Below are positions 1 to 27,329 of a stretch of 46,684 bases of DNA, piece by piece. Positions within the stretch are counted from its first letter, which is position 1. Each line of letters starts with the position of its first letter. The position numbers and the translations under genes were made by a program. Origin of the DNA: a virus; the IMG/VR virus record IMGVR_UViG_3300043219_000162, positions 1 to 46,684 of that record. One strand, written 5' to 3'. The notes under the pieces are model-generated. The model was given only the letters and a program-made list of their open reading frames with translations, was not told the DNA's origin and searched no databases.

Positions 1-218
1 ACCTGATTCATTGCCGCACTGAAAGACTCAGCGGTTCTGATTGCAGTTGCAGCAAGCCCAACAAGAGGAGCCGTGATACCGAGAGTAAGGGAGGTTCCAA
101 CACTCTGAAGATTCTGACCAACCTGCCTCATTTGGTCTTGAGCCGATTGCATCCCCTTGGAGAATTGGCTCATCTCCATCCCGAGTCTTACAAAGATGTC
201 TCCAACACTTTGGGCCAT
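1..218 (-). CDS. Tail tape measure protein, N-terminal part (runs off the window)
   Basis: Only the first 72 codons are visible; the gene continues past position 1. The start ATG (216-218) follows a GGGAG ribosome site about 8 nt upstream. The protein begins MAQSVGDIFVRLGMEMSQFS and continues with a Q-rich helical stretch followed by a 'GTSLTLGITAPLVGLAA' segment. That layout is typical of the N-terminus of phage tape measure proteins, which set tail length and sit in the tail lumen. It lies directly after the tail-tube and chaperone genes, which is the expected place. The identification rests on this N-terminus and on gene order. Confidence 0.85.
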   Translation of the reverse strand, partial: MAQSVGDIFVRLGMEMSQFSKGMQSAQDQMRQVGQNLQSVGTSLTLGITAPLVGLAATAIRTAESFSAAMNQ

Positions 219-11364: not shown

Positions 11365-12681
11365 TCAACCGACAAATGAAATCCCAATTGGGATCTTCGG
11401 CTCCATCACAAAGGTATTGTAAGAGCCGCTTGTTGCGTCTGCTTGGTCATCATGATCCGCCTCAGGTACTAGTAGAAGTTCACTCAGCCAATGAGCATTC
11501 CATGGAGCATTGCAGACAGTCACTTGCCCCTTCTCACAAGCTCTTGCAAAAGGATTCCATCTGCCCGCCTTGGGTCCGCTTGCTGGAATGCCTTTGAAGT
11601 TGTACCCCTTCAGGACTTTTCTATAGGAGGAAATAACTGTCTTGCCGGAGGAGCCGGGTTCTTGCTCCATCCGGACCCGAACATTTCTACCGTCCGCTGA
11701 TGCCGTTGACCAAACCATGTTCTCAACCCCTTCCGGGTCTAGTTGGTCTCTCCGAACATCCTCAACGAAGTACCTTCCAGTCTTGATGTCCTTGGCAATC
11801 AAAGCTCCTACAGTCCAATCCCCGCCTCCCTTAGTTGCAGCACAGTCCCAAAATCTGACTCTCTCCACAAGAGGAGGAACAAAGTCCGCCCATTCTCGGA
11901 ACCATTCCCGCTTGAAGACTGCTCCGTCCGGAACGATGTCCCAATCTCCATCCTCCCTTTGCTTCCTTGTGATCGGATCAAGGTTGGACAGAGCCTCCCT
12001 GTAAGACTCGATATCCGCATGGGGATTGTCCTCAAGCTTTGCAGGAATGAAAGCTCTCTTAGGAGGAGGATTAGTGATGAAGCGATCCTTGACCCATTGA
12101 TGTCCAATGCCGCCCGGATTGCTTGCCGCCCGCATCCGGAGAGGGACGGGGAATCCCTTGAGCCTCCGAAGCCGTCCAAAGAGGAATGTGTACTGAGACT
12201 CTAGGAACTGAGTCAACTCATCAAAAGCAATGTACTGAAACTCCGGGCCATCATAGTTGTACTTGTCCTTCTCATGTTGGAGGTACCCGAATACTAGCTT
12301 GGCTCCGGAGGGAAACTCGTATCTGTGGGCTTCATTGTTCCAGTGAGCATCCGTCCCCCTCAGCCAATTGTGTGCTCTATCAAGGATAGAGTTTGGCATG
12401 TTTAACTGAGGGTAAGTTCTTCGGAGGATGAGAGCAGAATAATCCGGAACATGGACATACTGAAGAGCCGCCATTAGAATGGCTTCTGTTTTTCCTCCTG
12501 CCGCCGCTCCTCCATAGAATGCCTCCATGCAATCGAGGTTGAGGAAGATGCCTTGCCGAGGAGTTGGGACTTTGGGGATGTAGTGATTAAGCTTGGGGAA
12601 TAGCAGAGAGCGGAGGTATTCTTCGGTCTTTAACCTGTGAACAAAGTGTACATGGCGTTTTTGAGGTACGACCAATTGCAT
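11365..12681 (-). CDS. Terminase large subunit
   Basis: 438 residues. The ATPase domain has Walker A GGAAAGGKT (residues 57-65), Walker B 'YIAFDE' (about 149-154) and 'ASNPGG' as coupling motif. The nuclease domain has acidic residues in 'RFWDCAATKGGGDWT' and in 'DHDDQADATSG' near the C-terminus. It pumps and cuts DNA during packaging. It lies upstream of sigma factor, portal and head genes. No small terminase gene is adjacent; a candidate is at 29077-30120. Confidence 0.95.
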   Translation of the reverse strand: MQLVVPQKRHVHFVHRLKTEEYLRSLLFPKLNHYIPKVPTPRQGIFLNLDCMEAFYGGAAAGGKTEAILMAALQYVHVPDYSALILRRTYPQLNMPNSILDRAHNWLRGTDAHWNNEAHRYEFPSGAKLVFGYLQHEKDKYNYDGPEFQYIAFDELTQFLESQYTFLFGRLRRLKGFPVPLRMRAASNPGGIGHQWVKDRFITNPPPKRAFIPAKLEDNPHADIESYREALSNLDPITRKQREDGDWDIVPDGAVFKREWFREWADFVPPLVERVRFWDCAATKGGGDWTVGALIAKDIKTGRYFVEDVRRDQLDPEGVENMVWSTASADGRNVRVRMEQEPGSSGKTVISSYRKVLKGYNFKGIPASGPKAGRWNPFARACEKGQVTVCNAPWNAHWLSELLLVPEADHDDQADATSGSYNTFVMEPKIPIGISFVG

Positions 12682-14867: not shown

Positions 14868-15183
14868 TCACTTTCTTTCCCTTCTGAGAGCCGCTGAGGG
14901 GCTCCCGGACAATCCGGAGGGTCAATCCATCCGGAAAGTATTTGAACTCCATGGAGGCTCCCGGAGGGATGCGGATAAGGCTCCCATCCGCATCTGCCCA
15001 AGCCTCACTGAGAATCTTTGCCGTGTTGGCTTGCCGCCTTGCTGCCTTGACCTCCCACCAATCGAGATAAAAAGGCAAGAGGAGGAGGAGGACAGGAACT
15101 CCGACAAGGGCAATCCTGCTCCACAGAAGCCGCTTTGGCTTGTCCTTAGGAGGAGGAGCAGTGCCTAGTTTTGGGTTTGGCAT
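14854..15183 (-). CDS. Single-pass membrane protein
   Basis: 109 residues. A Pro/Lys-rich N-terminus (residues 1-20) precedes a membrane segment at about 22-42 ('RIALVGVPVLLLLLPFYLDWW'), then a soluble C-terminal domain with 'GSLIRIPPGASMEFKYFPDG'. Type II topology with an outside C-terminus fits the charge distribution. Function unknown. A class 2 promoter-like element lies 24 nt upstream of the start, right after a terminator, so this is probably the first gene of the thyX operon. Confidence 0.7.
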   Translation of the reverse strand: MPNPKLGTAPPPKDKPKRLLWSRIALVGVPVLLLLLPFYLDWWEVKAARRQANTAKILSEAWADADGSLIRIPPGASMEFKYFPDGLTLRIVREPLSGSQKGKKVNADN

Positions 15184-15206
15184 GTTTCATCCTTTCGTCA
15201 CACTGA

Positions 15207-15216
15207 GATTGTACGG
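15207..15216 (-). promoter_or_regulatory. Class 2 promoter-like element CCGTACAATC
   Basis: CCCGTACAATCTCAG lies directly after the T-run of a terminator and before the 15183 gene with its GAAAGGA site. Terminator followed at once by this element is the arrangement expected of a promoter. Confidence 0.5.
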
Positions 15217-15221
15217 GAAAT

Positions 15222-15249
15222 AGAAAAGGCTCCGGAGTGACCCGGAGCC
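15222..15249 (-). terminator. Strong rho-independent terminator
   Basis: GGCTCCGG pairs with CCGGAGCC (15228-15235 with 15242-15249, 6-nt loop), followed on the minus strand by TTTTCTATTT. It ends the short transcript of the 15295-15576 gene. Confidence 0.85.
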
Positions 15250-15294
15250 GAGAAGGCGGGAGGGGAGGTTCCTCCTCCCTCTTCCGTCTTGCCT

Positions 15295-15576
15295 TTAGGC
15301 AAACTGAATAATGTAGAGACTCGCCAACACTGCCTTGACTGCCGCTTTGCCAGTCCGGCCAACTCCGCAAGCCATGGAGAAACTTTCTGCCGTCTCCATG
15401 TTCGCTCCCCACAAAGACCAGAACTCACCGTTGCCGGAGTTCTTCGGGTAGTACTTGATAGTTACATTGCCCTTGGAAGTCTGAGCAACCATGTGCTCTC
15501 CGCATCGCTTTGCCCGCCTCAGGTCTGCATCCGCCGCTTGATTCCGGATCTTTTGGACTGTGTTTGTGTTTGCCAT
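15295..15576 (-). CDS. Small early protein with MANTNTVQ start
   Basis: 93 residues, basic, unknown function. It shares the first eight residues and the whole upstream region with the gene at 19982-20254; the bodies differ. It has its own sigma70-type promoter, whose -10 box ends 5 nt before the ATG, so the mRNA is probably leaderless, and its own terminator at 15222-15249. A monocistronic, strongly promoted small gene suggests an early host-takeover protein (inference). Confidence 0.75.
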   Translation of the reverse strand: MANTNTVQKIRNQAADADLRRAKRCGEHMVAQTSKGNVTIKYYPKNSGNGEFWSLWGANMETAESFSMACGVGRTGKAAVKAVLASLYIIQFA

Positions 15577-15630
15577 AACTAATAGTAACTCCTCCTCCTC
15601 CTGATGTCAAGACTTTTTCCGGATTATTTT
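15553..15630 (-). repeat. 78-bp perfect direct repeat, copy 1
   Basis: See the copy at 20231-20308. Perfect identity across promoter and start region suggests a recent duplication or gene conversion that delivers a ready-made expression signal. Confidence 0.9.
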
Positions 15631-15631
15631 T
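15577..15631 (-). promoter_or_regulatory. Class 1 promoter, leaderless type
   Basis: TTGACA (15605-15610), a 17-nt spacer containing a GGAGGAGGAGGA run, TACTAT (15582-15587), then 5 nt to the ATG. Upstream of the -35 lies the box AATAATCCGGAAAAAGTC, shared by three other class 1 promoters. The GGAGG run is in the spacer and would not be in the mRNA. Confidence 0.8.
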
Positions 15632-15643
15632 GCCTCCTCCTCC

Positions 15644-15661
15644 TGTCAACTTTGGTTGACA
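15644..15661. promoter_or_regulatory. Palindrome TGTCAAC-N4-GTTGACA
   Basis: A 7-bp perfect palindrome lies upstream of the class 1 promoter at 15577-15631. The same half-site GGTTGACA occurs in the long inverted repeat at 23094-23220, so it may be a shared operator. Confidence 0.4.
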
Positions 15662-15675
15662 CTTTTGGTTGGTTG

Positions 15676-18009
15676 CTAGTTACAAGTGAGCGCAGTGACA
15701 ATCCCGTCTGTGACTGTCATGGAAGCCACACCAGAGCCACAGGTAGCCGTGATGGCACTTTCTAGGGCAATGGTTCCGTCTGCGTCCGGCGCAATCAAGT
15801 TGCTTGTTTCCCCCGGAGTCACTCCGCTGGCATCTAACGTGATGCTCTTAGTAGGATCAGCGTTGTTGAAGACGTTGAAGTTGGCATCTGAGAACTGAGT
15901 TGCTGCCACGGTAGACGTTCCACCGCCCGCTGAACTCGGGAGCGTCCCAAGCAAGTCAATGACCTCAACCTCAGTCCAATCCCCTCCCCCGGAGACTTGA
16001 TGTTGCAGCACCAAACGAGCAATCAGAAACCCGATGCTGTTCAATTCCGCCGGGATGGTAGTTACCGCCGTGTTGTTAGCATCGGCTTGAGCATTGACAG
16101 CGGAGTTGTAGAAACCTGTAGGAAGGTTGACATAAACTTTGCTGGACCCGCTCTTGCTCATGGCTCCAAAGATCACAAGATTGAAATATTTTCCGGACAT
16201 TGAAGACCCGGTATCAGTGGACAGCGCGGCGGACAAATCAGCGATGTCATCCCACTGAGATAACCCGTTGCCGTAGTAGTATTTTGAAGAGGTAGTAGCT
16301 CCCCACGTCTGCCTATGAAGCTGACGAACAACCCCGCCCGCCGTGTTCAAATGCACTACATCCGGAGTGTCCGGCACGATGGAAAGTGTAGGAGCAACCC
16401 CGCTGACCCAATCAGCAATTCCTTCACGCAACTTCTCCCGCTGATGATGCAACGCTCCCTTAGAGGCAAGGGTCAGAGATTCAGTAGCGCGTTGAAATCC
16501 GTATGCCCCTTCCGCCGTGAACGTGGTATCATCCGGAACCGTGACGATAGCAATGTTGGCATAAGTTCCGGTAGGATGTGAAGTCGAAGCGGCTAGTACT
16601 GCATCAGGCCCTGAGACGATTGCACTAACCCAATTCTGAACCGGGTTGTTTGAGTCAGCCCCTTCAGTCAGCGCAATCCGAGCTTTGCCTCCCGAGCCCG
16701 CCCCTGTAGTGCAATCCAAAGTGTAAAGGGCATTGTTGAAAATGAAATCAACATCTCCTCCTCCTTGGGCTTCCACTTCCATGTAGATGATCCCACCGTT
16801 CACTATGAGCGTTGGGTCAACTTGCTGAATGCTGAGCGCGTTAGTCAGCCCTGCTAGAACCTCCTGAATGGCTTTCTCAGAATCGAGTTCATTGAATGCT
16901 GCTTGAGCATCCGTTGCGGCAATGTCTCCGGAAGGTGTGTTGGCCACTGCCGCCCCGTTTAGAGTCTGCCAAGACTCATCCCCACGGAAGTACTGAGCGG
17001 TAATGCCAGCCCCGAGATGAGCCGTCTCCCTGAAGACGAAGATGCTGCCGTTTTGGTCGTGGTCATTGACCACATAAGCAACCGGAGCGCGCCAGTTGGG
17101 AGAAACAGGAGGAGTATTTGTGAGAGTACCAGCCTCAGTTGCGGACACATAGAGCAAACTGCCTTCCCCTAAACCCTCAGTGTTGATGCCCCGAACGATA
17201 CCCGTTACAGTCACGTATCCGAAATTGCCATTGAGAATGTCAGAAGTCACTACACCAACTTGTTTAACGGTGGCCTCAGCATCGGCAAGAGCTAGATCCA
17301 CAGTAGGAACTCCTGATGCTCCAACCGCCCCGTCAATGTAAACTGTAATTCCATCATCAAGTGTATCGCCGGTCTCGTTTTTGGCGCGGACCCAAAGTTC
17401 CTGTCCAATCTGCAATGTGACGTTGCTGTCATCATTGTAGAAAGCAAGAGCTTTGGCGTCCTCATCGTAGAACAGACGACCTTCGAGATAATCAGGAGCC
17501 GGAGCATCATTGACAAAATCCACAGTAGGAACTTCCTCAAGAACCTTCAATGAGCGGTAGTTCGTGCCGTCTGAATAGATGAATGCCCACTGTCCGGAAA
17601 GTAGGGCAAGGGTTGCGCCGCCGTCGATTGTACTTATCGTTGGTGTGACCGTGACCGCTCCCGCGCTGATATTTTTTAGCACGAACCATGAGCCGTCCTC
17701 GAACCCGGTACTTCCTCCTTGAGGAAGTGTGACCGCAATTGGAGAAGCATTTGAGAGAGTGAGCAACCGGCCCGCGTCCTCTTCAAGCATTGTGTAAGTG
17801 GTTCCAGTCTGAGCATTGGCAGGACCGCCCCAACCCGGAGACGATGTGACAATGTTCAGCATGTCGGTCTCGTTAGCGGTTCCATTCGGAGCCGAGCCAC
17901 CGCTCCCGTTCATTAGCGCGACGGCTTCAACTTGCGTGACGTGTGATTGGCCTGAAACCGAGATTACGGTTAGCGCCAACAAAATCAAGATGCTGAGCAA
18001 AGTTCTCAT
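15676..18009 (-). CDS. Tail fibre / receptor-binding protein with N-terminal signal peptide
   Basis: 777 residues from the ATG at 18009, which has GGAG 6 nt upstream; the longer frame from 18153 has no ribosome site and overlaps the small gene upstream. Residues 1-20 form a typical signal peptide (MRTLL then a Leu/Ile-rich core and 'VSVSGQS'). The body has phage-fibre patterns: 'SPIAVTLPQGG', 'GSWFVLKNISAGAVTVTP', a 'GNFGYVTVTGIVRGINT' repeat domain, and 'SIGFLIARLVLQHQ..GGDWTEVEVIDL' near residue 690. Fibre proteins assembled in the cytoplasm normally lack a signal peptide, so this one is odd. GCG/CGC-rich words set the region apart from its neighbours. Confidence 0.82.
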   Translation of the reverse strand: MRTLLSILILLALTVISVSGQSHVTQVEAVALMNGSGGSAPNGTANETDMLNIVTSSPGWGGPANAQTGTTYTMLEEDAGRLLTLSNASPIAVTLPQGGSTGFEDGSWFVLKNISAGAVTVTPTISTIDGGATLALLSGQWAFIYSDGTNYRSLKVLEEVPTVDFVNDAPAPDYLEGRLFYDEDAKALAFYNDDSNVTLQIGQELWVRAKNETGDTLDDGITVYIDGAVGASGVPTVDLALADAEATVKQVGVVTSDILNGNFGYVTVTGIVRGINTEGLGEGSLLYVSATEAGTLTNTPPVSPNWRAPVAYVVNDHDQNGSIFVFRETAHLGAGITAQYFRGDESWQTLNGAAVANTPSGDIAATDAQAAFNELDSEKAIQEVLAGLTNALSIQQVDPTLIVNGGIIYMEVEAQGGGDVDFIFNNALYTLDCTTGAGSGGKARIALTEGADSNNPVQNWVSAIVSGPDAVLAASTSHPTGTYANIAIVTVPDDTTFTAEGAYGFQRATESLTLASKGALHHQREKLREGIADWVSGVAPTLSIVPDTPDVVHLNTAGGVVRQLHRQTWGATTSSKYYYGNGLSQWDDIADLSAALSTDTGSSMSGKYFNLVIFGAMSKSGSSKVYVNLPTGFYNSAVNAQADANNTAVTTIPAELNSIGFLIARLVLQHQVSGGGDWTEVEVIDLLGTLPSSAGGGTSTVAATQFSDANFNVFNNADPTKSITLDASGVTPGETSNLIAPDADGTIALESAITATCGSGVASMTVTDGIVTALTCN

Positions 18010-18010
18010 G

Positions 18011-18178
18011 TCAGTCTCCAGTGAAGAAATTTGAAGAGTAGAAGTGGTCGGAGTCAAAAGTCCCGGTAGGAATTCCCTGTCCGGAAGGTTGAATGCTGAT
18101 TCCAAGTTTGATCTCTTGCGCGATAACCAACACAAGAGAAGAGAGCAGAACACAGAGAGCGATTCGGAAGAATGCCAT
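18011..18178 (-). CDS. 55-residue protein with signal peptide
   Basis: Starts at the ATG 18176-18178 behind GGAGG (4-nt spacing) and stops two bases before the fibre gene start (TGA-C-ATG). Residues 1-20 (MAFFRIALCVLLSSLVLVIA) look like a signal peptide with cleavage after AQ or IA; the short remainder 'EIKLGISIQPSGQGIPTGTF' is polar. Function unknown. It sits between the spike-like and fibre genes. Confidence 0.7.
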   Translation of the reverse strand: MAFFRIALCVLLSSLVLVIAQEIKLGISIQPSGQGIPTGTFDSDHFYSSNFFTGD

Positions 18179-18195
18179 TTGTCCTCCAGTTCAAG

Positions 18196-18519
18196 CTAGT
18201 AGACCGCAACCAAAGCAGTCGCGCCCGTGCCGGTTGCATAGACACGGGAAGCTCTGACCGCAAGCATGTAACCTGCCGGGACAGCGGCAAAGGTCACGGT
18301 TCCCGATCCGACCATATCCACCTTGACATCCCCCGTGCCGCCAACCCATATGGCGCGAGTGAAGTTTGCAAGATCGTTCGTGTTGTGTGGCGTGATTGCG
18401 AATGCATCCTCAGCGGGGGAAGTAAGACCCGCTTGATAAGTAGAAAACTTGTCTGCCCCGCTAAGCAGCAAGCACAACATGAGCGCAAGCACTGCGCCGA
18501 AAAACATACGTCTGGACAT
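18196..18519 (-). CDS. Spike base protein-like (GTA Rcc01079-type) with N-terminal hydrophobic segment
   Basis: 107 residues from the ATG at 18519, which has GAAGGAG upstream. Residues about 40-107 match the spike base protein family known from gene transfer agents: 'AITPHNTNDLANFTRAIWVGG', 'VTFAAVPAGYML' and 'RVYATGTGATALVAVY'. These proteins sit at the base of receptor-binding spikes. Here the usual short N-terminus is replaced by MSRRMFFGAVLALMLCLLLSG, a signal-peptide-like segment. The element GCGATAATCAC lies upstream. Confidence 0.8.
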   Translation of the reverse strand: MSRRMFFGAVLALMLCLLLSGADKFSTYQAGLTSPAEDAFAITPHNTNDLANFTRAIWVGGTGDVKVDMVGSGTVTFAAVPAGYMLAVRASRVYATGTGATALVAVY

Positions 18520-18571
18520 ATCAATCTCCTTCACAAATTTGAAAATTCAGGGCATCATATCCCTACTCGTG

Positions 18572-18578
18572 ATTATCG
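18572..18578 (-). promoter_or_regulatory. Class 2 promoter-like element CGATAAT
   Basis: TTGCGATAATCACGAGTAGGG follows directly after the 18598-18668 hairpin and precedes the spike/fibre cassette. It is close to the element at 30401-30408 (CCGATAATCAC). Confidence 0.45.
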
Positions 18579-18591
18579 CAAGAGACGAACC

Positions 18592-18815
18592 AACGCAAGA
18601 AACCCCGGCAACCGCTGAGCCGGAAAGCGGTTGAACCGCTCCGGGCATTGGGGTTTGCCGGGGTTTCTAAATCGAATGTGCGCCGATGTCTCGTTTTTCA
18701 ATCAACCGTTCTGCTTGGTATACATATCTTGAGCCGCTCCTCTCTGCTTTGATCGGGCTTATACTCCGGAACCGCTCAAGCTCAACGCTCCGGGAGTTTG
18801 GTTGGCTTATTCAAT
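18592..18815 (-). ncRNA. Candidate structured non-coding RNA
   Basis: A TTGACA-N18-TACATT promoter (18822-18851) would start RNA near 18815. The next 220 nt have no reading frame longer than 7 codons from an ATG. They contain an imperfect 13-nt inverted repeat (CTTGAGC with GCTCAAG ends) and finish in a perfect 14-bp stem (18598-18611 with 18655-18668) that encloses three alternating AACCGCT/AGCGGTT segments able to pair in two ways. This looks like a small structured RNA ending in a terminator. It could instead be only a leader or a dead gene remnant. Confidence 0.4.
18598..18668 (-). terminator. Large stem-loop with 14-bp stem and alternative inner hairpins
   Basis: Outer arms AGAAACCCCGGCAA and TTGCCGGGGTTTCT are perfect. 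Inside, 18610-18616, 18626-18632 and 18634-18640 can form two mutually exclusive hairpins. On the minus strand the stem ends in GGGGTTTCTTG, a weak T-run. Confidence 0.6.
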
Positions 18816-18821
18816 GGACCC

Positions 18822-18851
18822 AATGTACTCCAAGCCGGAGGAACTTGTCAA
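18822..18851 (-). promoter_or_regulatory. Class 1-like promoter overlapping the end of the 18848 gene
   Basis: TTGACA (18846-18851) overlaps the TGA of the upstream gene; an 18-nt spacer leads to TACATT (18822-18827). No start codon with a ribosome site follows for 200 nt. Confidence 0.5.
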
Positions 18852-19072
18852 CCCTCATCCTCCTCTGATTCTTCATAGTGAGCACATTCTGAGCAAAGAT
18901 GATGCTCATTCCCTTTGCAACTCCCCCAAACTCCGGACTTGGGAGGAGGAAGAAGCATACCACAAGGAGTTCTTTTGCTCCAAATATCAAGAACTCCATC
19001 AGGCATGTTGGAATCCTGAGGAAGCCGATGGAAAGCATACCGGCAGAGCCACATCCAAAACCGTTCTCTCAT
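18848..19072 (-). CDS. Small Cys/His-rich protein
   Basis: 74 residues from the ATG at 19072, which overlaps the upstream stop as ATGA; an in-frame ATG at 19093 is possible. Near the C-terminus 'CKGNEHHLCSECAHYEE' holds Cys and His residues that could bind one zinc. The C-terminus is acidic. No family recognised. Confidence 0.6.
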   Translation of the reverse strand: MRERFWMWLCRYAFHRLPQDSNMPDGVLDIWSKRTPCGMLLPPPKSGVWGSCKGNEHHLCSECAHYEESEEDEG

Positions 19073-19638
19073 GCCTTTGGTATTTCCGGACATGGTTCTA
19101 ATTCCTCCTCCTTCTTCATCTCCTCAGCCTGCTCAGCAGTGAGGATCTCCCCATAGGCTCTCATGTGTACCTTCCCCTCAATCTCATGGGCTCTTGAGTG
19201 CATGTAGTAAACTCCCCCGTATCCTCCTGTTTCCTCCGCGACACTCTGAACAAAATCACAGGGGAAGGGGAGTCCGAGGTACGGGCCAGCCTTCTTGTTC
19301 ATCTCCTCAAAGCGGATTGTTACTTCAATGTGCTTCTGCCGGAGTCGATCATACACCCAAGCATGGTCAATTGGTACGTCAACAACACAGACAGATCCCT
19401 CCATGTAGATGTATCGTGCCGGGTCTGAAAGGGCAAGCAAAGCCGCATTGCCCCAGCAAGTTTTAGGAGTCCCCATCTCATCTTTCATTCCCTGCTCTGC
19501 CGTAGCAACTTCAATCCCTATCCGGGATAGAACTGCAATGGGATGTTCCCTTGGTCCAAGCATGGTACTCCATGCTCTGTAAGTTTGCCGGAGGGAGTTG
19601 AATTCCTCCTCCTCCGTCTTTGCCGTTGTCTCTTCCAT
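19069..19638 (-). CDS. Phage protein with Cys-Asn / His-Ala-Trp motif, possible papain-like fold
   Basis: 189 residues, ATG 19638 behind GGAGACAGTG. The pattern 'CWGNAALLALSDPARYIYMEGSV', then 'IDHAWVYDRL', an 'EVTIRFEE' strand and 'GPYLGLPFPCDFV' matches a group of phage proteins with Cys, Asn and HAW residues spaced as in transglutaminase/NlpC-like folds. If real, Cys, His and a following acidic residue would be the active site. Substrate is unknown. I recognise the pattern but not a named function. Confidence 0.7.
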   Translation of the reverse strand: MEETTAKTEEEEFNSLRQTYRAWSTMLGPREHPIAVLSRIGIEVATAEQGMKDEMGTPKTCWGNAALLALSDPARYIYMEGSVCVVDVPIDHAWVYDRLRQKHIEVTIRFEEMNKKAGPYLGLPFPCDFVQSVAEETGGYGGVYYMHSRAHEIEGKVHMRAYGEILTAEQAEEMKKEEELEPCPEIPKA

Positions 19639-19694
19639 CACTGTCTCCTGATTGCAGGAGGAGGAGCCTTGCCCCTCCCCATTGCTCAGCTTGT

Positions 19695-19880
19695 CTACGC
19701 TGCCAAGCTTGCGGAAAGCTGCCCTGCCAACCAACCGTCGATCATTTTGATAGTTCCCTGTTTGCCGCTCAGCATTGCTGCAAAAACCGGATCACTTGCC
19801 GGAGCCGTTGCCCGGAGAGTCTCGAATGCCGTCCGCCCTGCGTTTACTGCCTGCTTGATTTCTGCTTTTGTGTATTCCAT
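19695..19880 (-). CDS. Small Ala-rich early protein
   Basis: 61 residues, mostly helical ('MEYTKAEIKQAVNAGRTAFE'). Its class 1 promoter ends 6 nt before the ATG, and there is no ribosome site in the mRNA, so it should be translated leaderless. Function unknown. Confidence 0.75.
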   Translation of the reverse strand: MEYTKAEIKQAVNAGRTAFETLRATAPASDPVFAAMLSGKQGTIKMIDGWLAGQLSASLAA

Positions 19881-19935
19881 AAACCAAGTATAGTTCCTCC
19901 TCCTCCAGATGTCAAGACTTTTTCCGGATTATTTT
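19881..19935 (-). promoter_or_regulatory. Class 1 promoter, leaderless type
   Basis: TTGACA (19910-19915), 17-nt spacer with GGAGGAGGAGGA, TATACT (19887-19892), 6 nt to the ATG. The same AATAATCCGGAAAAAGTC box lies upstream of the -35. Confidence 0.8.
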
Positions 19936-19948
19936 CCTCCTCCTGTAA

Positions 19949-19969
19949 GGGAGGGGAAAATCCCCTCCC
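19949..19969 (-). terminator. GC-rich hairpin after the 19982 gene
   Basis: A 9-bp stem (19949-19957 with 19961-19969) closes a short loop just after the stop at 19982. Only TTAC follows on the minus strand, so termination may be partial. Confidence 0.55.
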
Positions 19970-19981
19970 CGTCTGCCTTGC

Positions 19982-20254
19982 CTAGAGCCTAACTCTCTTC
20001 ATCTTGCGGACCCGGCTGATGATGCCGCCCAAGTCCTCGGCATAGTGTCCCGTCTCCTGTGGCAGTGTGGTCATTCCGGAGTAGAAAGTCACATCATAAA
20101 GATCTGATCCGGGGTTGTACTCAATGATTGCTCCGTTGCTTCCCCGGCTCACTTTGACCGCGTTGGGATTCCAGAGGACCATCGTGCAACCTTTGACGTT
20201 AGAAGCCTTCAGTTGCTCAATCAGGTTTGCTTGGACTGTGTTTGTGTTTGCCAT
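19982..20254 (-). CDS. Small early protein with MANTNTVQ start
   Basis: 90 residues, strand-rich middle ('NGAIIEYNPGSDLYDVTFYSG') and basic end ('VRKMKRVRL'). It shares the first eight codons and 54 bp of upstream sequence with the gene at 15295-15576; the rest is unrelated. Likely early, with its own promoter and hairpin terminator. Function unknown. Confidence 0.75.
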   Translation of the reverse strand: MANTNTVQANLIEQLKASNVKGCTMVLWNPNAVKVSRGSNGAIIEYNPGSDLYDVTFYSGMTTLPQETGHYAEDLGGIISRVRKMKRVRL

Positions 20255-20308
20255 AACTAATAGTAACTCCTCCTCCTCCTGATGTCAAGACTTTTTCCGG
20301 ATTATTTT
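20231..20308 (-). repeat. 78-bp perfect direct repeat, copy 2
   Basis: 20231-20308 is identical to 15553-15630. It covers the upstream box, the promoter and the first eight codons. The genes diverge right after codon 8. Confidence 0.9.
20255..20308 (-). promoter_or_regulatory. Class 1 promoter, leaderless type
   Basis: TTGACA (20283-20288), 17-nt GGA-rich spacer, TACTAT (20260-20265), 5 nt to ATG. Identical in sequence to the promoter at 15577-15630. Confidence 0.8.
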
Positions 20309-20315
20309 GAGAGGC

Positions 20316-20339
20316 TCCCCTCCCCTGTAGGGGAGGGGA
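20316..20339. other. GC-rich hairpin after the ArdC-like gene
   Basis: A 10-bp stem (20316-20325 with 20330-20339) with a TACA loop lies 10 nt after the ArdC-like stop. On the minus strand the TTTT is on the 5-prime side, so it is more likely an mRNA-end stabiliser than a classical terminator. Confidence 0.5.
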
Positions 20340-20348
20340 AAATCCTTG

Positions 20349-21182
20349 CTAGACCTTGCCTGCCGTGAGGATCTCATTGGCAGCTTTGAAAATCCTTTGC
20401 GCTGACTTCTCCGGAATGTCCTTGCCGCCCCTCAACCAATTTTGGATGTATCCCCGGCTCTCTTCAGAACCCTCCAACCCAAGAGCCTCAGAAACTATCA
20501 GAGCCGTTGTCTCTGCCTCAACCTCCCGAATGTTACGCGGAGTGGCATTGCCGGACAGGACATCAGTGAGCCTCTCCTCAGTGTGTCCCAAGACCACATG
20601 AGCCAACTCATGCAAAGCAATCCGGGTCTGATGCGGATGCAGCGGGTTAACGGAGATGGTCCGCTTGTAGGCATACCCTCCGGTATTCCCATCAGGCATA
20701 TTGAAGGATTCCTCCGAGATGTTGAGACCCGTGAGAGCCTTGCTCCTGTCCCATCCGGGAACTTCCTCCGGCTCAACTTCCTTGCCGTCCGTCTGAGACA
20801 TCACAAACCAACGGGAAGGATAGATGAACTGGGAGAACTGGACCTTGGTTTTCTCCGGCTTACCATCGGCTCCCATGACCACAGAGCCGGACTCATCCGT
20901 CTTGTCAACTGTGAAGGTCCGCTTGACGGGTTGGCAGAGAGTGATTGCCTTCTGCCCCTTCATGACAAACCGCCCCTTTTCCTTCCAAGCTTTGAACGTC
21001 CCGATTGGTCCCGGCTCAATGCCCTTGGCTGAACACTGCCAGAGAGCAAGCATCTGATTTCCGATGCTGTAATTGTGGAACATCTGGAAAGCTTTGGAGA
21101 TCGTACCCGGCACGTTGACTGCATCCTCAAGGATCTGCTGCCACGTTGCGGGAGCCGTTTGGGTTTTGGTTTTGTCTGTCAT
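20349..21182 (-). CDS. ArdC-like antirestriction / ssDNA-binding protein with zinc protease motif
   Basis: 277 residues. The N-terminal domain (residues 10-125) matches ArdC/DUF1738: 'SIGNQMLALWQC', 'FKAWKEKGRFVMKGQKAI'. The C-terminal domain has a metalloprotease motif HELAHVVLGH (residues 191-200) with a later 'EVEAETTALIVSEALGL' Glu. Related plasmid proteins protect incoming DNA against restriction. It has its own class 1 promoter and a proper GAAGGAG leader, so it is likely expressed early to shield phage DNA. Whether it cleaves protein is unknown. Confidence 0.87.
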   Translation of the reverse strand: MTDKTKTQTAPATWQQILEDAVNVPGTISKAFQMFHNYSIGNQMLALWQCSAKGIEPGPIGTFKAWKEKGRFVMKGQKAITLCQPVKRTFTVDKTDESGSVVMGADGKPEKTKVQFSQFIYPSRWFVMSQTDGKEVEPEEVPGWDRSKALTGLNISEESFNMPDGNTGGYAYKRTISVNPLHPHQTRIALHELAHVVLGHTEERLTDVLSGNATPRNIREVEAETTALIVSEALGLEGSEESRGYIQNWLRGGKDIPEKSAQRIFKAANEILTAGKV

Positions 21183-21231
21183 TTTCTGTCTCCTTCACTT
21201 AAAGAGTACAGGAGGAGGAGGAGGAAGTCAA
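21183..21231 (-). promoter_or_regulatory. Class 1 promoter with leader, spacer of TCC repeats
   Basis: TTGACT (21226-21231), a 17-nt spacer of TCC repeats, TACTCT (21203-21208), then a 20-nt leader with GAAGGAG. The spacer repeat is in the opposite orientation to those of the leaderless promoters. Confidence 0.75.
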
Positions 21232-21465
21232 TACCTAAATTCACTTTTTCTCAAAATAGTTCTAAGTGGTTGAAAAGACAAGGAAGAAACTGTCCGGATA
21301 ATTTCGAGCAGGGAATTTGGGGAATTTCAAAACACTTCAAGGGGATAATGCTCAAACGGATGGGAGGCTCTGGGAGAGCTTCTAGGAGAGGCAGGTACCC
21401 CAACGTACATGAAAGGGTCTCAGAATGGCGCTAAGGGGCTTGTATGGAGCAGGAAGGGCAAAGAG

Positions 21466-21492
21466 AAGCCGGGAGGACAATCCTCCCGGCTT
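21466..21492 (-). terminator. Terminator hairpin after the 21534 gene
   Basis: A perfect 12-bp stem (21466-21477 with 21481-21492) with a 3-nt loop, followed by CTCTTTG on the minus strand. The 302-nt gap 21232-21533 otherwise holds an ATTATCCGGAC box near 21290 and no gene that I can see. Confidence 0.7.
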
Positions 21493-21533
21493 ATCCCAGC
21501 CCAAGCAGAGGTTTTGAAGATAGAAGATAGTGC

Positions 21534-21743
21534 TCAGACTTTGATTGAGAATACATCCTTGAGGGCGAAGGGGTCAAGCCTGCTCCATCCGCCGTCCGTT
21601 CTCTTGCGATAGATGCAAGTACTCAACTCCTCCTCACTTGGATGGTTGGAAGGATGGCCCTGAGTTTGGCTCTTCCGAACCTCCGCTTTCTGCTCCGGGG
21701 AAAGTTCCTCCCAAGTATACCGCCGTCTCTTCGGCCTTTTCAT
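21534..21743 (-). CDS. Small basic protein
   Basis: 69 residues, starting MKRPKRRRYTWEELSPEQKA, a DNA- or RNA-binding-like basic N-terminus followed by a helix. ATG 21743 follows GGGGGAACA. Last gene before the terminator at 21466. Function unknown. Confidence 0.6.
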   Translation of the reverse strand: MKRPKRRRYTWEELSPEQKAEVRKSQTQGHPSNHPSEEELSTCIYRKRTDGGWSRLDPFALKDVFSIKV

Positions 21744-21752
21744 TGTTCCCCC

Positions 21753-21998
21753 TTAACCTGCCGGAGAGATCCCCTCCAACCGCTTGATGGTTTCCTCATA
21801 GGCTTCCCCGTCTGTTACCCGGAGAGTCCCAACAAACTCCGGACTGCCGCCCTTGGGAGTGTAGATCCGGACCTCCTTCCGGTTGTGCCGGGGAACCTCA
21901 ACCCGGATAGGTCTCAACTTCCGGTTGCCCTTCTCTGTTGCCGTGAACCGCAAGCCTGCCGCATGGGTCCAATGTTGATAAATCTGAGTTGGCGTCAT
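21753..21998 (-). CDS. Small basic protein
   Basis: 81 residues, with 'RKLRPIRVEVPRHNRKEVRIYTPKGG' strands and a C-terminal helix 'GEAYEETIKRLEGI'. ATG 21998 follows AAGGAGG. Function unknown; in one transcript with 21534-21743. Confidence 0.65.
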   Translation of the reverse strand: MTPTQIYQHWTHAAGLRFTATEKGNRKLRPIRVEVPRHNRKEVRIYTPKGGSPEFVGTLRVTDGEAYEETIKRLEGISPAG

Positions 21999-22065
21999 CT
22001 GTACTGCCTCCTTGAAAAGTTCCTCCCCCTATTAGGAGCCGGGAGAGGATAGGCTCAAGCAATCC

Positions 22066-22344
22066 CTAGTCAACCCAAACAGAGAGGAAATCCTCATCAA
22101 CTTCCTCGTCAAGATCAAAGACCATCTCAGACTTGGGAGAGAAGCTGATCTCCTTTGCATCAAGTGGAAGGTCAAGAACTGCCTGCTCAACACTGTCAAA
22201 GGAAGTCTCAGGAGGAGAAATGGCTCCGGTCTTGAAGTAATCCCGGCTTACCCCGCCCCGCTCATCCTGCCAGATGGAGAAAGTTGCACCATCGGTTCCC
22301 TCGAAAACTTTTTCTAAGTTCCGTTTGATTTTGTCGGTTGCCAT
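22066..22344 (-). CDS. Small acidic early protein
   Basis: 92 residues. 'ATFSIWQDERGGVSRDYFKTG' resembles 'GVQIWEDESGGLPFIVMEPG' in the next upstream gene, so the two may be distant relatives. The C-terminal third is Asp/Glu-rich. Translated leaderless from a class 1 promoter. Function unknown; an acidic early protein could be a DNA mimic, but this is speculation. Confidence 0.72.
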   Translation of the reverse strand: MATDKIKRNLEKVFEGTDGATFSIWQDERGGVSRDYFKTGAISPPETSFDSVEQAVLDLPLDAKEISFSPKSEMVFDLDEEVDEDFLSVWVD

Positions 22345-22400
22345 AATTAGAGTATAGTTCCTCCTCCTCCCAATGTCAAGACTTATTCCGGATTATCTTC
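22345..22400 (-). promoter_or_regulatory. Class 1 promoter, leaderless type
   Basis: TTGACA (22374-22379), 17-nt spacer with GGAGGAGGAGGA, TATACT (22351-22356), 6 nt to ATG. A close variant of the AATAATCCGGAAAAAGTC box lies upstream (GATAATCCGGAATAAGTC). Confidence 0.8.
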
Positions 22401-22773
22401 CTCCTGTTCTTGTGGGCTTGCGAAACTCCCCATGCTTGTCCCGAAGTTGATCCCATCCCGCCTTGATTCTCTTCATTGTTGTTGTGAGGGGCTCCCATAC
22501 CACGGACTGCGCCGTATTGATGGCATGGACAACAATGGAATTGCAGGCAGTCCCCTGAGTGAACAAGCTGGGAGAATCAATCCCTCCTGATCTGACATCC
22601 AAGAACCTCCTCTCATCCATCCTTGCTTCGATATAGTTATCAGGACCAAGAGGAAAGTATGCAGAGACTCCCGGCTCCATGACGATGAAGGGAAGTCCGC
22701 CGCTTTCATCCTCCCAAATCTGGACTCCGGGGATTGCCTCCCGGATAAACTTTGCTCTTGCTGTTGATGGCAT
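22393..22773 (-). CDS. Unknown small protein
   Basis: 126 residues. 'IPGVQIWEDESGGLPFIVM' and a strand-rich middle, then a basic C-terminal helix 'TTTMKRIKAGWDQLRDK'. ATG 22773 has AGGAGG 4 nt upstream. It overlaps the upstream box of the next class 1 promoter. Function unknown. Confidence 0.7.
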   Translation of the reverse strand: MPSTARAKFIREAIPGVQIWEDESGGLPFIVMEPGVSAYFPLGPDNYIEARMDERRFLDVRSGGIDSPSLFTQGTACNSIVVHAINTAQSVVWEPLTTTMKRIKAGWDQLRDKHGEFRKPTRTGGR

Positions 22774-22841
22774 TTTGCCTCCTATTCAAGAATCCATGCT
22801 AGAACATTGAGGAGGAACCGGGCAACCGGCTCTTCCTCCTC

Positions 22842-23003
22842 TTAGTACCTGCCTCCCGCAACTGCTGAGCCATTCTCATTGATGCGGATGCCAGAGGACC
22901 GTCCGGCGAACTTCTTGCCCAATGCCGGGAGGAAGTAACAACCCAAGAAGAATCCAAGAACTGCCAGTGTTTCGACTGCCTCTATTATGTTTGCCTCAAG
23001 CAT
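22842..23003 (-). CDS. 53-residue membrane protein
   Basis: Starts MLEANIIEAVETLAVLGFF and has one membrane segment at about residues 10-29, then a basic, glycine-rich tail. A class 1 promoter places its -10 box 6 nt before the ATG, so it is leaderless. Function unknown; a superinfection-exclusion or host-membrane role is possible for an early membrane peptide. Confidence 0.7.
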   Translation of the reverse strand: MLEANIIEAVETLAVLGFFLGCYFLPALGKKFAGRSSGIRINENGSAVAGGRY

Positions 23004-23069
23004 GATTCAAGTATGCAGGAGGAGGAGGAACTTTGTCAACCCCTAGAGGCAATTATTTTCCGGATATTT
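23004..23069 (-). promoter_or_regulatory. Class 1 promoter, leaderless type, TCC spacer
   Basis: TTGACA (23034-23039), 18-nt spacer with TCCTCCTCCTCC, CATACT (23010-23015), 6 nt to ATG. A TATCCGGAAAATAATT box lies upstream (23051-23066). Confidence 0.7.
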
Positions 23070-23093
23070 TTACCTAGTGTTTTCTAGGGCATT

Positions 23094-23220
23094 TCTTGGA
23101 TGTGGTTGACATGTTATTGACATGCCATGCAATGAGGTCTGATATGTCCTTTGGAATGATGATACTAGGAGGAGAATCCGCATTGGAAATATGTCAATAG
23201 AATGTCAACCACATCCAAGA
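23094..23220. repeat. Long inverted repeat with 30-bp arms
   Basis: Arms 23094-23123 and 23191-23220 match at 28 of 30 positions around a 67-nt spacer. Each arm holds two TTGACAT units 11 bp apart, one helical turn. It lies in the 240-nt gap between the 23244 gene and the 23003 gene. It could be an operator or origin-like element; the wide spacer argues against a simple terminator. Confidence 0.85.
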
Positions 23221-23243
23221 TGCTCAATAATGGGATGTATGGA

Positions 23244-23849
23244 TCAACTGTTTCGGACTTCCCAGATGATAGTATTCCGCCCTCTCGCCCAACCAAGGTC
23301 ATGAGAATATGCCGTGAGTTCCACAACATGCCCCGGATACATGGTCAAGAGGTCTATCACGTCATCATGAGATGCCGGGGACAAGTACCTCCGGAGGAGG
23401 AAGTATACCGGAGGGCCGCTCAACTCCTCTGCCTTAGCAAGAGCCTGCCTCATGCGGATGAGCTTTCCGAAAGCCTTATCAGGTCTCCTCCACAACCGCC
23501 CATGGATATTACCGTCCATGATGCGGACCTCCCCTTGTAGCCGAGCGTTCATATCGGGAGCACATTCATTGAACCGGAGATCCCGGAGAGGGATTCCCCG
23601 CTTGATGATGGAAGCGACAAGAGCAGGGAGCAAAACAACAGGAGCCTCCTCAACAACTCCCCCTCCAATAGCTCCGGCCTGTCTTACCATGACATGTCCA
23701 GAAAAAGAGAGGGGAACTTCCTCCAGAGTGTTCCAAGTCCGAAGAGAGTTCCCCAATTGCCGGTTGTGCCACAAGGAATAAAACTCCCGCTTGTTCCGGA
23801 TGGTTTCCGGGAGCCAAGGCGGAATATCCGGCCTAAGAAGTTGGCTCAT
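23244..23849 (-). CDS. Unknown protein
   Basis: 201 residues. N-terminus 'MSQLLRPDIPPWLPETIRNK' with 'EFYSLWHNRQLGNSLRTWN', middle with repeated hydrophobic strands, and a 'GPPVYFLLRRYLSPASHDDVI' segment near the end. No family recognised. It overlaps the MazG-like gene by 17 nt and is the last gene of that operon before the long inverted repeat. Confidence 0.72.
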   Translation of the reverse strand: MSQLLRPDIPPWLPETIRNKREFYSLWHNRQLGNSLRTWNTLEEVPLSFSGHVMVRQAGAIGGGVVEEAPVVLLPALVASIIKRGIPLRDLRFNECAPDMNARLQGEVRIMDGNIHGRLWRRPDKAFGKLIRMRQALAKAEELSGPPVYFLLRRYLSPASHDDVIDLLTMYPGHVVELTAYSHDLGWARGRNTIIWEVRNS

Positions 23850-24231
23850 GCTTGTCCGCTCGTTTCAGAGCATCCGCTTCTGAGAACTTTTCCGGATACC
23901 GTTTCTCTAGTTTCCGGATGTTGTCCCCAAGAACTTCCTCCATGGTGCAACCGTGCTCTTGGTTCATCACATCAATGCCAAGACCAAGGTACCAAGAGCA
24001 GTCTCCATATTCCTCCTTGACGTGTTGCCAGTCAATTGGAGTCCCATAGAAGAGATGCCGCTTGAGGATGTCCGCAAGCTCCCCAACCTCCGTTTGCAAC
24101 CCCATCAAGGAATGCATAAGCCGGAGAGTTGATTTGTTGACCAACCGGGCAAGGATGGGTTGGTAGTCCTCCACGTCCGTCCGGACTGCGAGGTCAACGT
24201 AATTCTCTGATGTTACTCCCTCCCGCTTCAC
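23833..24231 (-). CDS. MazG-like nucleotide pyrophosphohydrolase
   Basis: 132 residues. All-alpha MazG superfamily with metal-binding E48-x-x-E51 (TEVGE) and E74-x-x-D77 (EEYGD), then 'NIRKLEKRYPEKFS' typical of the family C-terminus. It would hydrolyse (d)NTPs to monophosphates and PPi; in phages such enzymes adjust nucleotide pools or alarmone levels. The start overlaps the upstream stop as ATGA. Confidence 0.85.
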   Translation of the reverse strand: MKREGVTSENYVDLAVRTDVEDYQPILARLVNKSTLRLMHSLMGLQTEVGELADILKRHLFYGTPIDWQHVKEEYGDCSWYLGLGIDVMNQEHGCTMEEVLGDNIRKLEKRYPEKFSEADALKRADKHEPTS

Positions 24232-24479
24232 TCCTCTCCTTCCCTGTCCAGATTGATAGTTGTGTCCGGGAAGCGGTCAACAATCTCCGGGTTAATCACA
24301 ATTTCAAAGTGGTCCGGCTCAAGGAGGAAGGCTCCATCCTTGGTCCTTCCAATGCCCTTGAACTTGATGGAGAATTGAAAATCATACTTCTCCCTCCATC
24401 GTTCAATGAGAGCATCCAAGATCCCCCAAAAATACTGCTTGGGAGAGAGCTTCTTGAAAAATCGGTTGAAGATCTTCAT
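24228..24479 (-). CDS. Unknown small protein
   Basis: 83 residues. Basic N-terminus 'MKIFNRFFKKLSPKQYFWG', then strands 'FQFSIKFKGIGRTKDGAF'. ATGA overlaps on both sides couple it to the methyltransferase fusion and the MazG-like gene. Function unknown. Confidence 0.68.
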   Translation of the reverse strand: MKIFNRFFKKLSPKQYFWGILDALIERWREKYDFQFSIKFKGIGRTKDGAFLLEPDHFEIVINPEIVDRFPDTTINLDREGEE

Positions 24480-25438
24480 GCCGTGATTTCCTCCTCCTTA
24501 GCCATCAGAGCCTCAGTAGATCCGTCAACGATTGCTTGGGCAATCGTGTCCTCTGGATTCGCAACCGGAGTAAAAGCAGTATCCCCGATCTTGTACACAA
24601 AGATAGTCCGCTTGCGGTTGTCATGCTCGATAACTTCAACCGTCGCGGGCTTCCATCCTTCCATGGAGAAATCCAGAGAGACAACCCGGCTTCCCGGCTT
24701 GAGCTTCTGCTCAAAGATGGGCCTGAGGATTGCGTTGCTCTCCTGCAAGAGATACACAAACACAACGTCTATACCCGGCAGGAGATCAAAAGTTTCATTG
24801 GAGAGGATGTCCTGTTGGAGGATATCCGCCTTGGCCCGGTACTTGGAGGTCTTGATGAGATCCCTTGCCATCCCAACCCGGCTGTCATGCTTCTCAACCC
24901 CGATTGCCTTAGCGCAGATTTTCGCTGCCTTGTGGACTGTCCGGCCATCCCCGCAACCCAGATCTAGGAAGGACTCGCCAACCGCCAACTCAGCAAGCTC
25001 AAGGGCTTTGTCAATCAGTTCCGGAGGGGTTGGGACATACGGAGCCAACGCGCCCTTGTCAAGGTCTGCATTGGTCATGAGCCGGAGCATGATAGAAAGA
25101 GCTTCCCGGAATTGGTGGATGTAGAGGTACGCTCCAACCTGCTCAACCGTGAGGGCAGGATCTTCATGAACAAGACAAGCCCAAAAGAACAGCCTCATAT
25201 CGTGGACGGACTGCCCTTGGAATTCCCCCTTCATCGGGTTCTTCCCGGTTTTCTTTTTGATGAGGGTCATCGCGTTGAAATCCCAAATCAGGGTACGCGG
25301 TTTATCCAACTGAACCTCAACAATCCGTTGTTCCTCCGGCTTGTCCTTGGACCCCATCTTTGGGATTGGAACCATGGGCATGGCCCGCTCATCAATTTCA
25401 ATCTCAGGAGTTTCCTCCGGTACTGTCTTCTCACTCAT
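24476..25438 (-). CDS. Tail-chaperone-like domain fused to class I methyltransferase
   Basis: 320 residues, ATG 25438 behind ATAGGAGAC. Residues about 35-120 look like a tail assembly chaperone domain: 'WDFNAMTLIKKKTGKNPMKG', 'DMRLFFWACLVHEDPALTVEQVGAYL'. Residues about 130-290 are a class I SAM methyltransferase: 'FLDLGCGDGRTV' (SAM loop), 'AIGVEKH', 'IDVVFVYLLQESNAILRP' and 'LKPGSRVVSLDFSMEGWKP', as in the DOT1-like/CFA-like bacterial methyltransferases. The reading frame is continuous. The target is unknown. It is far from the real tail chaperone pair at 237-1072, yet its N-terminal domain resembles that protein. Confidence 0.82.
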   Translation of the reverse strand: MSEKTVPEETPEIEIDERAMPMVPIPKMGSKDKPEEQRIVEVQLDKPRTLIWDFNAMTLIKKKTGKNPMKGEFQGQSVHDMRLFFWACLVHEDPALTVEQVGAYLYIHQFREALSIMLRLMTNADLDKGALAPYVPTPPELIDKALELAELAVGESFLDLGCGDGRTVHKAAKICAKAIGVEKHDSRVGMARDLIKTSKYRAKADILQQDILSNETFDLLPGIDVVFVYLLQESNAILRPIFEQKLKPGSRVVSLDFSMEGWKPATVEVIEHDNRKRTIFVYKIGDTAFTPVANPEDTIAQAIVDGSTEALMAKEEEITA

Positions 25439-25446
25439 TGAGTCTC

Positions 25447-25632
25447 CTATCCTTTCTTGAACCAACTCGGGTTGGCTCTTCTCTTCTCTTGCAAGGATCT
25501 GACAGCAAGACCGCAAAGCCAATTCAACTTCCTCAAGAAAAGTTCCGTCCGGGCATCCTTGTCTTTCAGAGCAAGCCGCTTGAGAATCTTGGTCTCTATC
25601 CTGTCAAATTGTGGGTTGTGTTTTATATGCAT
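25447..25632 (-). CDS. Small basic protein
   Basis: 61 residues, helical and basic ('RIETKILKRLALKDKDARTE'). Its ATG lies 14 nt after the stem of a terminator, with no ribosome site; TTTTCATTTGAGACATG resembles the class 2 start region at 31595. Probably the first gene of the operon leading to the methyltransferase fusion. Function unknown. Confidence 0.6.
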   Translation of the reverse strand: MHIKHNPQFDRIETKILKRLALKDKDARTELFLRKLNWLCGLAVRSLQEKRRANPSWFKKG

Positions 25633-26859: not shown

Positions 26860-26869
26860 AATTATACGG
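26860..26869 (-). promoter_or_regulatory. Class 2 promoter-like element CCGTATAATT
   Basis: TCCGTATAATTGAACAGGAGG spans the TAA stop of the endolysin gene and leads into the ribosome site of the 26842 gene. It contains a perfect TATAAT. Confidence 0.5.
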
Positions 26870-27329
26870 AGCTTTCTGCTCCCGGATAGACAATGGTTCC
26901 AAATGAGGAGAGGAGGGAGGAAAGATCAGCAGTGTACAACAAAGCATCATTGGCAGCATAAGTCCACTTGCAAGGTTCCTCCTCCCGAACATCTACATGG
27001 ACAGTTCCTCTTGCCCAATTGCAACCAAGCCCCTTGAACTCCGGGAACTGCTCCTCAATCAGCAAAGCAACTGTAACCGGCTTCGCATCAACAACCACGA
27101 TATCCGCCGCTTCCCCCTTGAAATGTTTTGAGTTGGGTCTCTTTTTGGTCAAGTCATGGGAAGGACAGCGGACTCCGGAGATGATGTGAATAGGCACCCG
27201 GTAATGCTCCCGGAGCCGTTGCAGTCCGTTGTATAGTTCCGGAGAGAGTTGGATGTACTGCTGAGAGCAGAACCGGGAACCGCAACGGCAGGCAAACTCC
27301 CAGAGAGAAAAGTTCTTTGTCAGTTTCAT
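26862..27329 (-). CDS. Endolysin, M15 D-Ala-D-Ala carboxypeptidase-like
   Basis: 155 residues. M15_3 zinc peptidase: 'LWEFACRCGSRFC' near the N-terminus, 'IISGVRCPSHD', zinc ligands H69 and D76 in 'SKHFKGEAADI' and H111 in 'TVHVDV'. It would cut the peptide stem or cross-links of peptidoglycan for host lysis. No signal peptide, so release needs a holin; holin candidates are at 33784-33957 and 14604-14867, none adjacent. The start overlaps the upstream stop as TAATG. Confidence 0.9.
   Translation of the reverse strand: MKLTKNFSLWEFACRCGSRFCSQQYIQLSPELYNGLQRLREHYRVPIHIISGVRCPSHDLTKKRPNSKHFKGEAADIVVVDAKPVTVALLIEEQFPEFKGLGCNWARGTVHVDVREEEPCKWTYAANDALLYTADLSSLLSSFGTIVYPGAESSV

Follow-up and report, generated by a model that had tools for sequence, protein, structure and literature searches.

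A repeated family of probable sigma70-type phage promoters with GGA/TCC triplet runs in the spacer and predicted leaderless starts

Repeated promoters and leaderless genes have each been described in systems resembling the one reported here, a set of six promoters on the - strand of an uncultivated bacterial virus, record IMGVR_UViG_3300043219_000162 (46,684 bp; this whole stretch is called the window), whose spacers between -35 and -10 contain a run of GGA or TCC triplets. ESAS elements of cluster K mycobacteriophages, repeated, mostly intergenic and ~46-47 bp long, lie upstream of differing gene families and have SigA/sigma70-like -35 and -10 sequences spaced 17-18 bp, an imperfect inverted repeat of ~15-17 bp and a separate downstream 13-bp SAS, GGGATAGGAGCCC, near the start codon (PMC3203893, PMC11373665). 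In leaderless genes of Deinococcus-Thermus and Actinobacteria, a TANNNT-type -10 precedes the start codon by about 5-7 nt and no Shine-Dalgarno sequence is present at the normal distance (PMC12340547, PMC3160421). The window promoters share with ESAS the spaced sigma70-like elements repeated in a phage, but differ in having another upstream box, a GGA/TCC-run spacer and a -10 abutting the ATG. They share with the Deinococcus-type genes the position of the -10 and the missing Shine-Dalgarno, but occur in a phage where strong AGGAGG sites are otherwise the rule, and combine a near-consensus -35 with a repeated cassette. An ESAS-type inverted repeat was not found in box plus promoter, and the -10-to-ATG gap, only 5-6 nt, leaves no room for a 13-bp SAS; membership of ESAS, although the nearest system in architecture, was therefore rejected. 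The parts are individually known, whereas the copied package with its GGA-repeat spacer is an unusual, testable variant. Judging from the sequence, we think it probable that these are sigma70-type promoters of a tailed phage, that five of them give leaderless mRNAs and that the triplet run is not a ribosome site.

Six promoters and the box that four of them share

All six promoters listed in an earlier note on this DNA were found at the positions it gave (Table 1), each with near-consensus elements: a TTGACA-like -35 and a TATAAT-like -10, 16-18 nt apart and above chance expectation, as in sigma70-type promoters. In five of the six, the -10 box ended 5-6 nt before an ATG, in agreement with the same note. 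The spacers contained GGAGGAGGAGGA in four promoters, TCCTCCTCCTCC in the promoter whose -35 begins at 23039 and (TCC)5 in that beginning at 21231. Since GGAGGA is very common in this genome, simple shuffles would mislead, and chance was assessed with 100 order-5 Markov simulations preserving the hexamer bias of the genome. The pattern TTGAC[AT]-N16-18-[TC]ANNNT-N5-6-ATG occurred 5 times, compared to a simulated mean of 0.22 and a maximum of 2, and leaderless-type sites with (GGA)3 or (TCC)3 in the spacer were observed 5 times and never in the 100 simulations, with the caveat that the triplet run was itself the reason why the sites had been noticed. The set of promoters is real and exceeds chance; its mechanism is ordinary and its combination of parts unusual.

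Four promoters have in common an 18-nt box, AATAATCCGGAAAAAGTC, upstream of the -35, as had been claimed; it was identical in three of them and showed two changes in the fourth (the 22379 unit). At up to 3 mismatches, the window held only these four matches (0, 0, 0 and 2 mismatches; 0.02 expected from shuffles), every one ending exactly at TTGACA. Two of the units are moreover copies A and B of an exact 78-nt repeat that encodes MANTNTVQ, downstream of which the two proteins are unrelated. That the repeat stops after the shared first codons indicates that the copied unit was promoter plus start. UP elements of sigma70 promoters are AT-rich stretches with A-tracts directly upstream of the -35. 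The box likewise is AT-rich, has A-tracts and lies immediately upstream of the -35, and 14-15 of the 23 positions from -38 to -60 are A/T in the box units, which is suggestive of a putative UP element; unlike such an element, it has a central CCGG and is kept nearly letter for letter, so that an operator is another possibility. A palindrome with GTTGACA half-sites, TGTCAACTTTGGTTGACA (15644-15661), lies immediately upstream of the 15577 unit, and another GGA run comes after its TTGACA on the - strand.

A search of viral sequences for box plus TTGACA outside the window returned one other contig, IMGVR_UViG_3300043219_000091 (26,128 bp). Its last 147 nt (L062, G099:C1:25982-26128) matched window positions 1-147 at 146 of 147 nt and it bears the same GGAGGA/TCCGGA signature, so it is very probably an adjoining piece of the same virus. 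This end overlap led us to reject the contig as an independent relative: its box is a further copy and not independent conservation. After that fifth copy, which has one change, come TTGACA-GGAGGAGGAACTTATGA-GAATAT and then a gene that is leadered and has AAGGAG; GGAGGAGGA stands after the TTGACA even though the gene has this ribosome site of its own. A GGA run can hence occupy the spacer of a leadered gene, which makes the run separable from translation. The fifth box promoter is divergent from a UvsW-like helicase gene, itself preceded on the - strand (L061 ~12338-12375) by TTGGGA, an 18-nt spacer with a GGA run, TATAGT and 9 nt before the ATG, an arrangement that may give it a near-leaderless start.

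Leaderless starts or distant ribosome sites

According to the earlier note, the GGAGG of these units is promoter DNA that precedes the predicted start of the transcript, and five of the promoters give leaderless mRNAs. The sequence supports both points, the TCC orientation of two units and the leadered fifth box copy with its own downstream Shine-Dalgarno being in agreement. Where the run is TCC rather than GGA it cannot be a ribosome site. All five units combine a -10 about 5-7 nt before the start with the lack of a Shine-Dalgarno core at working distance. At verified leaderless genes, the -10 motif is found ~6-7 bp upstream of the open reading frame (ORF) (PMC12340547), and the agreement of the five units with this spacing argues for leaderless starts. 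The stretch between -10 and ATG holds its length of 5-6 nt while its sequence diverges (TAGTT, TGGTTT, CTAATT, TGAATC). The five genes predicted to be leaderless have 12-16 A and 3-7 CA within their first 30 nt, against means of 9.9 and 2.6 in other genes; leaderless translation is reportedly boosted by CA repeats that follow the AUG (PMC9031893). At three of the five starts, folding was weaker than in shuffles.

We weighed these data against the possibility that the GGA run serves as a normal Shine-Dalgarno, though a distant one, with transcripts starting further upstream or reading through and the promoter hexamers incidental or additional. GGAGGA is indeed the usual ribosome-site core in this genome, read-through is possible given that all genes point the same way, and the AATAAT of the 15577 box is preceded, at 15 nt, by a second TTGACA. 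However, at the other units the -35 for AATAAT is poor or absent, the 23004 unit has TCC and is without any Shine-Dalgarno core, and the exact TTGACA/17/-10 geometry is in excess of simulation. The distance from the end of the GGAGG core to the ATG is 14-15 nt in the four GGA units. Of the 43 other called genes that possess a 5-mer core, 40 show a distance of 3-11 nt, a contrast partly built in because the gene caller favoured gaps of 3-11 nt. Together these data make a distant ribosome site quite unlikely. It should be considered that, besides this bias of the gene caller, two observations count against the predicted leaderless promoters: the 15577 and 20255 units are exact copies and the four box promoters one family, leaving ~3 independent origins, and the -10 of the fifth box copy, GAATAT, is weak.

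The promoters would most likely be read by unmodified host RNA polymerase, each driving one small gene or short operon in an accessory region. In five of them, transcription would begin at the A of the ATG or no more than one base away, and the ribosome would attach straight to the AUG at the 5' end, favoured by A/CA-rich first codons. Four promoters are copies of one cassette, made of an AT-rich box at the UP-element position, TTGACA, a 17-nt spacer, -10 and start, two copies of which reach into the first eight codons and have been put ahead of unrelated ORFs. If this interpretation holds, a phage otherwise reliant on strong Shine-Dalgarno sites runs accessory genes leaderless from copied promoters, which would show the promoter to be a portable module that can bring its own translation start. 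For annotators, the warning is that a GGAGG ahead of a start codon can be promoter DNA.

The sixth unit departs from this scheme. The note had counted the ArdC-like gene among the units, and a TTGACT/TCC-spacer promoter is present there; however, a 20-nt gap follows its -10, AAGGAG lies 7 nt before the ATG (21182) and the unit (21183) lacks the upstream box, so the gene has a leader and its own ribosome site, and a leaderless start was not found for it. For the same reasons, it is a weak argument for the early expression it had been taken to support.

The triplet run in the spacer

The window is rich in the triplets themselves. GGAGGA occurred at 7 per kb on both strands together and TCCGGA at 2.5 per kb, against ~0.7 and ~0.2 in most other phage loci, and GGAGGA/TCCTCC and TCCGGA were ~tenfold over-represented on both strands and in every codon frame, 2-3.4-fold above synonymous shuffles. 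The run matches this genome-wide excess, and a role of the run in DNA twist or regulator binding, as had been proposed, was not borne out. We therefore lean towards the run being neutral filler, most likely a tolerated product of the GGA/TCC bias, whose length would be held to give a spacer of 17-18 nt.

The run could instead be a selected spacer element, acting in regulator binding, in twist or flexibility, or through a tetrad:heptad quadruplex of (GGA)4 on one or the other strand, a structure that GGA repeats are able to form (review PMC11477331). Three promoter lineages unrelated to one another have runs, both orientations being represented, and a run follows TTGAC[AT] in 7 of 83 cases against a background of 1.4%. 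Moreover, among three distinct copies no run position differed (0/12), while neighbouring spacer bases, the -10 or the discriminator did. An unchanged run amid diverged flanks is poorly predicted by neutral filler and has to be added to the observations that count against our interpretation. Yet the enrichment of these words extends through the genome and all frames, the number of units (3, 4 or 5) and the place of the run in the spacer vary, and we know of no reader protein for it. On balance, a selected element seems rather unlikely. The stronger proposal, that the virus spreads a self-contained cassette (box, GGA-spacer promoter, leaderless start and CA-rich codons) in which a selected triplet spacer acts as a specific switch recognized by a factor of phage or host origin, we regard as unlikely. 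A tandem repeat sitting exactly in the spacer might also suggest phase-variable promoters, in which slippage of the run alters spacer length and hence expression; the runs are short, however, and the spacer stays at 17-18 nt despite differing unit numbers through compensation in the flanks, which makes this highly improbable. If the promoters are as we propose, they allow a clear-cut test for sequence selection on the spacer between -35 and -10, which is supposedly neutral; should the run be compositional drift, they would amount to a modest new phage promoter family.

Genome context and comparison with sequence collections

The region holding the six promoters is flanked by the tail/lysis genes on one side and the terminase on the other, and its genes are small and mostly unmatched (Table 1). 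All genes of the window share one direction, the long genes being on the - strand.

Table 1 Promoters, repeats and genes of the window and of the adjoining contig
Feature	Position	Strand	Details
P1, box promoter	15577..15628	-	box 15628-15611; -35 TTGACA 15610-15605; 17-nt spacer, (GGA)4, 15604-15588; -10 TACTAT 15587-15582; 5-nt gap; ATG at 15576
Predicted leaderless gene (P1)	15295..15576	-	93-aa (amino acid) orphan, starts MANTNTVQ; no Pfam/PHROGs match
P2, box promoter	19881..19933	-	box 19933-19916; -35 TTGACA 19915-19910; 17-nt spacer, (GGA)4, 19909-19893; -10 TATACT 19892-19887; 6-nt gap; ATG at 19880
Predicted leaderless gene (P2)	19695..19880	-	61 aa; weak match to phrog_19203, unknown function
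P3, box promoter	20255..20306	-	box 20306-20289; -35 TTGACA 20288-20283; 17-nt spacer, (GGA)4, 20282-20266; -10 TACTAT 20265-20260; 5-nt gap; ATG at 20254
Predicted leaderless gene (P3)	19982..20254	-	90-aa orphan, starts MANTNTVQ; remainder unrelated to 15295-15576 protein
P4, box promoter	22345..22397	-	box (2 changes) 22397-22380; -35 TTGACA 22379-22374; 17-nt spacer, (GGA)4, 22373-22357; -10 TATACT 22356-22351; 6-nt gap; ATG at 22344
Predicted leaderless gene (P4)	22066..22344	-	92-aa orphan; no Pfam/PHROGs match
P5, TCC type	23004..23039	-	-35 TTGACA 23039-23034; 18-nt spacer with (TCC)4; -10 CATACT 23015-23010; 6-nt gap; ATG at 23003; no Shine-Dalgarno core within 30 nt
Predicted leaderless gene (P5)	22842..23003	-	53-aa orphan; no Pfam/PHROGs match
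P6, TCC type, leadered	21183..21231	-	-35 TTGACT 21231-21226; 17-nt spacer (TCC)5TG; -10 TACTCT 21208-21203; leader with AGGAG 21194-21190
ArdC-like antirestriction gene (P6)	20349..21182	-	ArdcN plus zincin/M78-like C-terminal part; normal leadered start
Exact 78-nt repeat, copy A	15553..15630	-	box, promoter, start codon, first 8 codons
Exact 78-nt repeat, copy B	20231..20308	-	precedes unrelated ORF
Major capsid protein	5929-7188	-	
Head protease	7289-8260	-	
Portal	9346-10695	-	
Terminase	11365-12681	-	
Tail protein	24476-25522	-	
Endolysin	26862-27329	-	
Sigma-70 region 2 protein (adjoining contig)	L061:5963-6505	-	Pfam above cut-off; PHROGs sigma factor

Further proteins encoded by the adjoining contig are a family A DNA polymerase, a DnaB-like helicase, a 5'-3' exonuclease and a topoisomerase-like protein; these replication genes, a 1497-aa ORF and the sigma-like gene were not found in the window. 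The sigma-like protein gave no match by sequence to solved structures. As the contig seems to encode a phage sigma factor, a two-step programme with host-type consensus promoters used first is plausible, and early timing of the six promoters would be expected from their host-type consensus together with the sigma-like protein on the abutting contig. A T4-type late promoter, TATAAATA, was absent from both pieces.

No nucleotide relative of positions 15000-24000 was found in the phage DNA collection, nor were viral relatives of two window proteins; neither of the close relatives, L007 (93%) and L048 (99.98%), spans the promoters, and assignment of the host through best protein matches was unsuccessful. 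Rfam gave no match. The same GGA-spacer promoter was not found in 2.9 million viral contigs. Among 84,980 genomes there was a single match, located ahead of dnaN in a planctomycete metagenome-assembled genome (L045 3778-3820), where TTGACA-(GGA)4-TACGGT stands a short distance from the ATG and is unrepeated. A looser pattern gave one match among 98 related genomes, and we treated this single case as probably due to chance rather than as a related promoter. A multi-copy GGA-spacer promoter was not found in the scanned viral or genome collections outside this virus.

Two further sites were noted in the region. At 18590-18851, on the - strand, a promoter-like TTGACA-18-TACATT is followed by a strong hairpin (18598-18668) ahead of the gene at 18519, a candidate small RNA or long structured leader. 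The other is a 30-nt inverted repeat (93%; 23094-23220) with arms 67 nt apart, each containing two TTGACAT at an 11-nt pitch; it lies in non-coding DNA on the upstream side of the 23004 promoter and is a candidate operator or origin.

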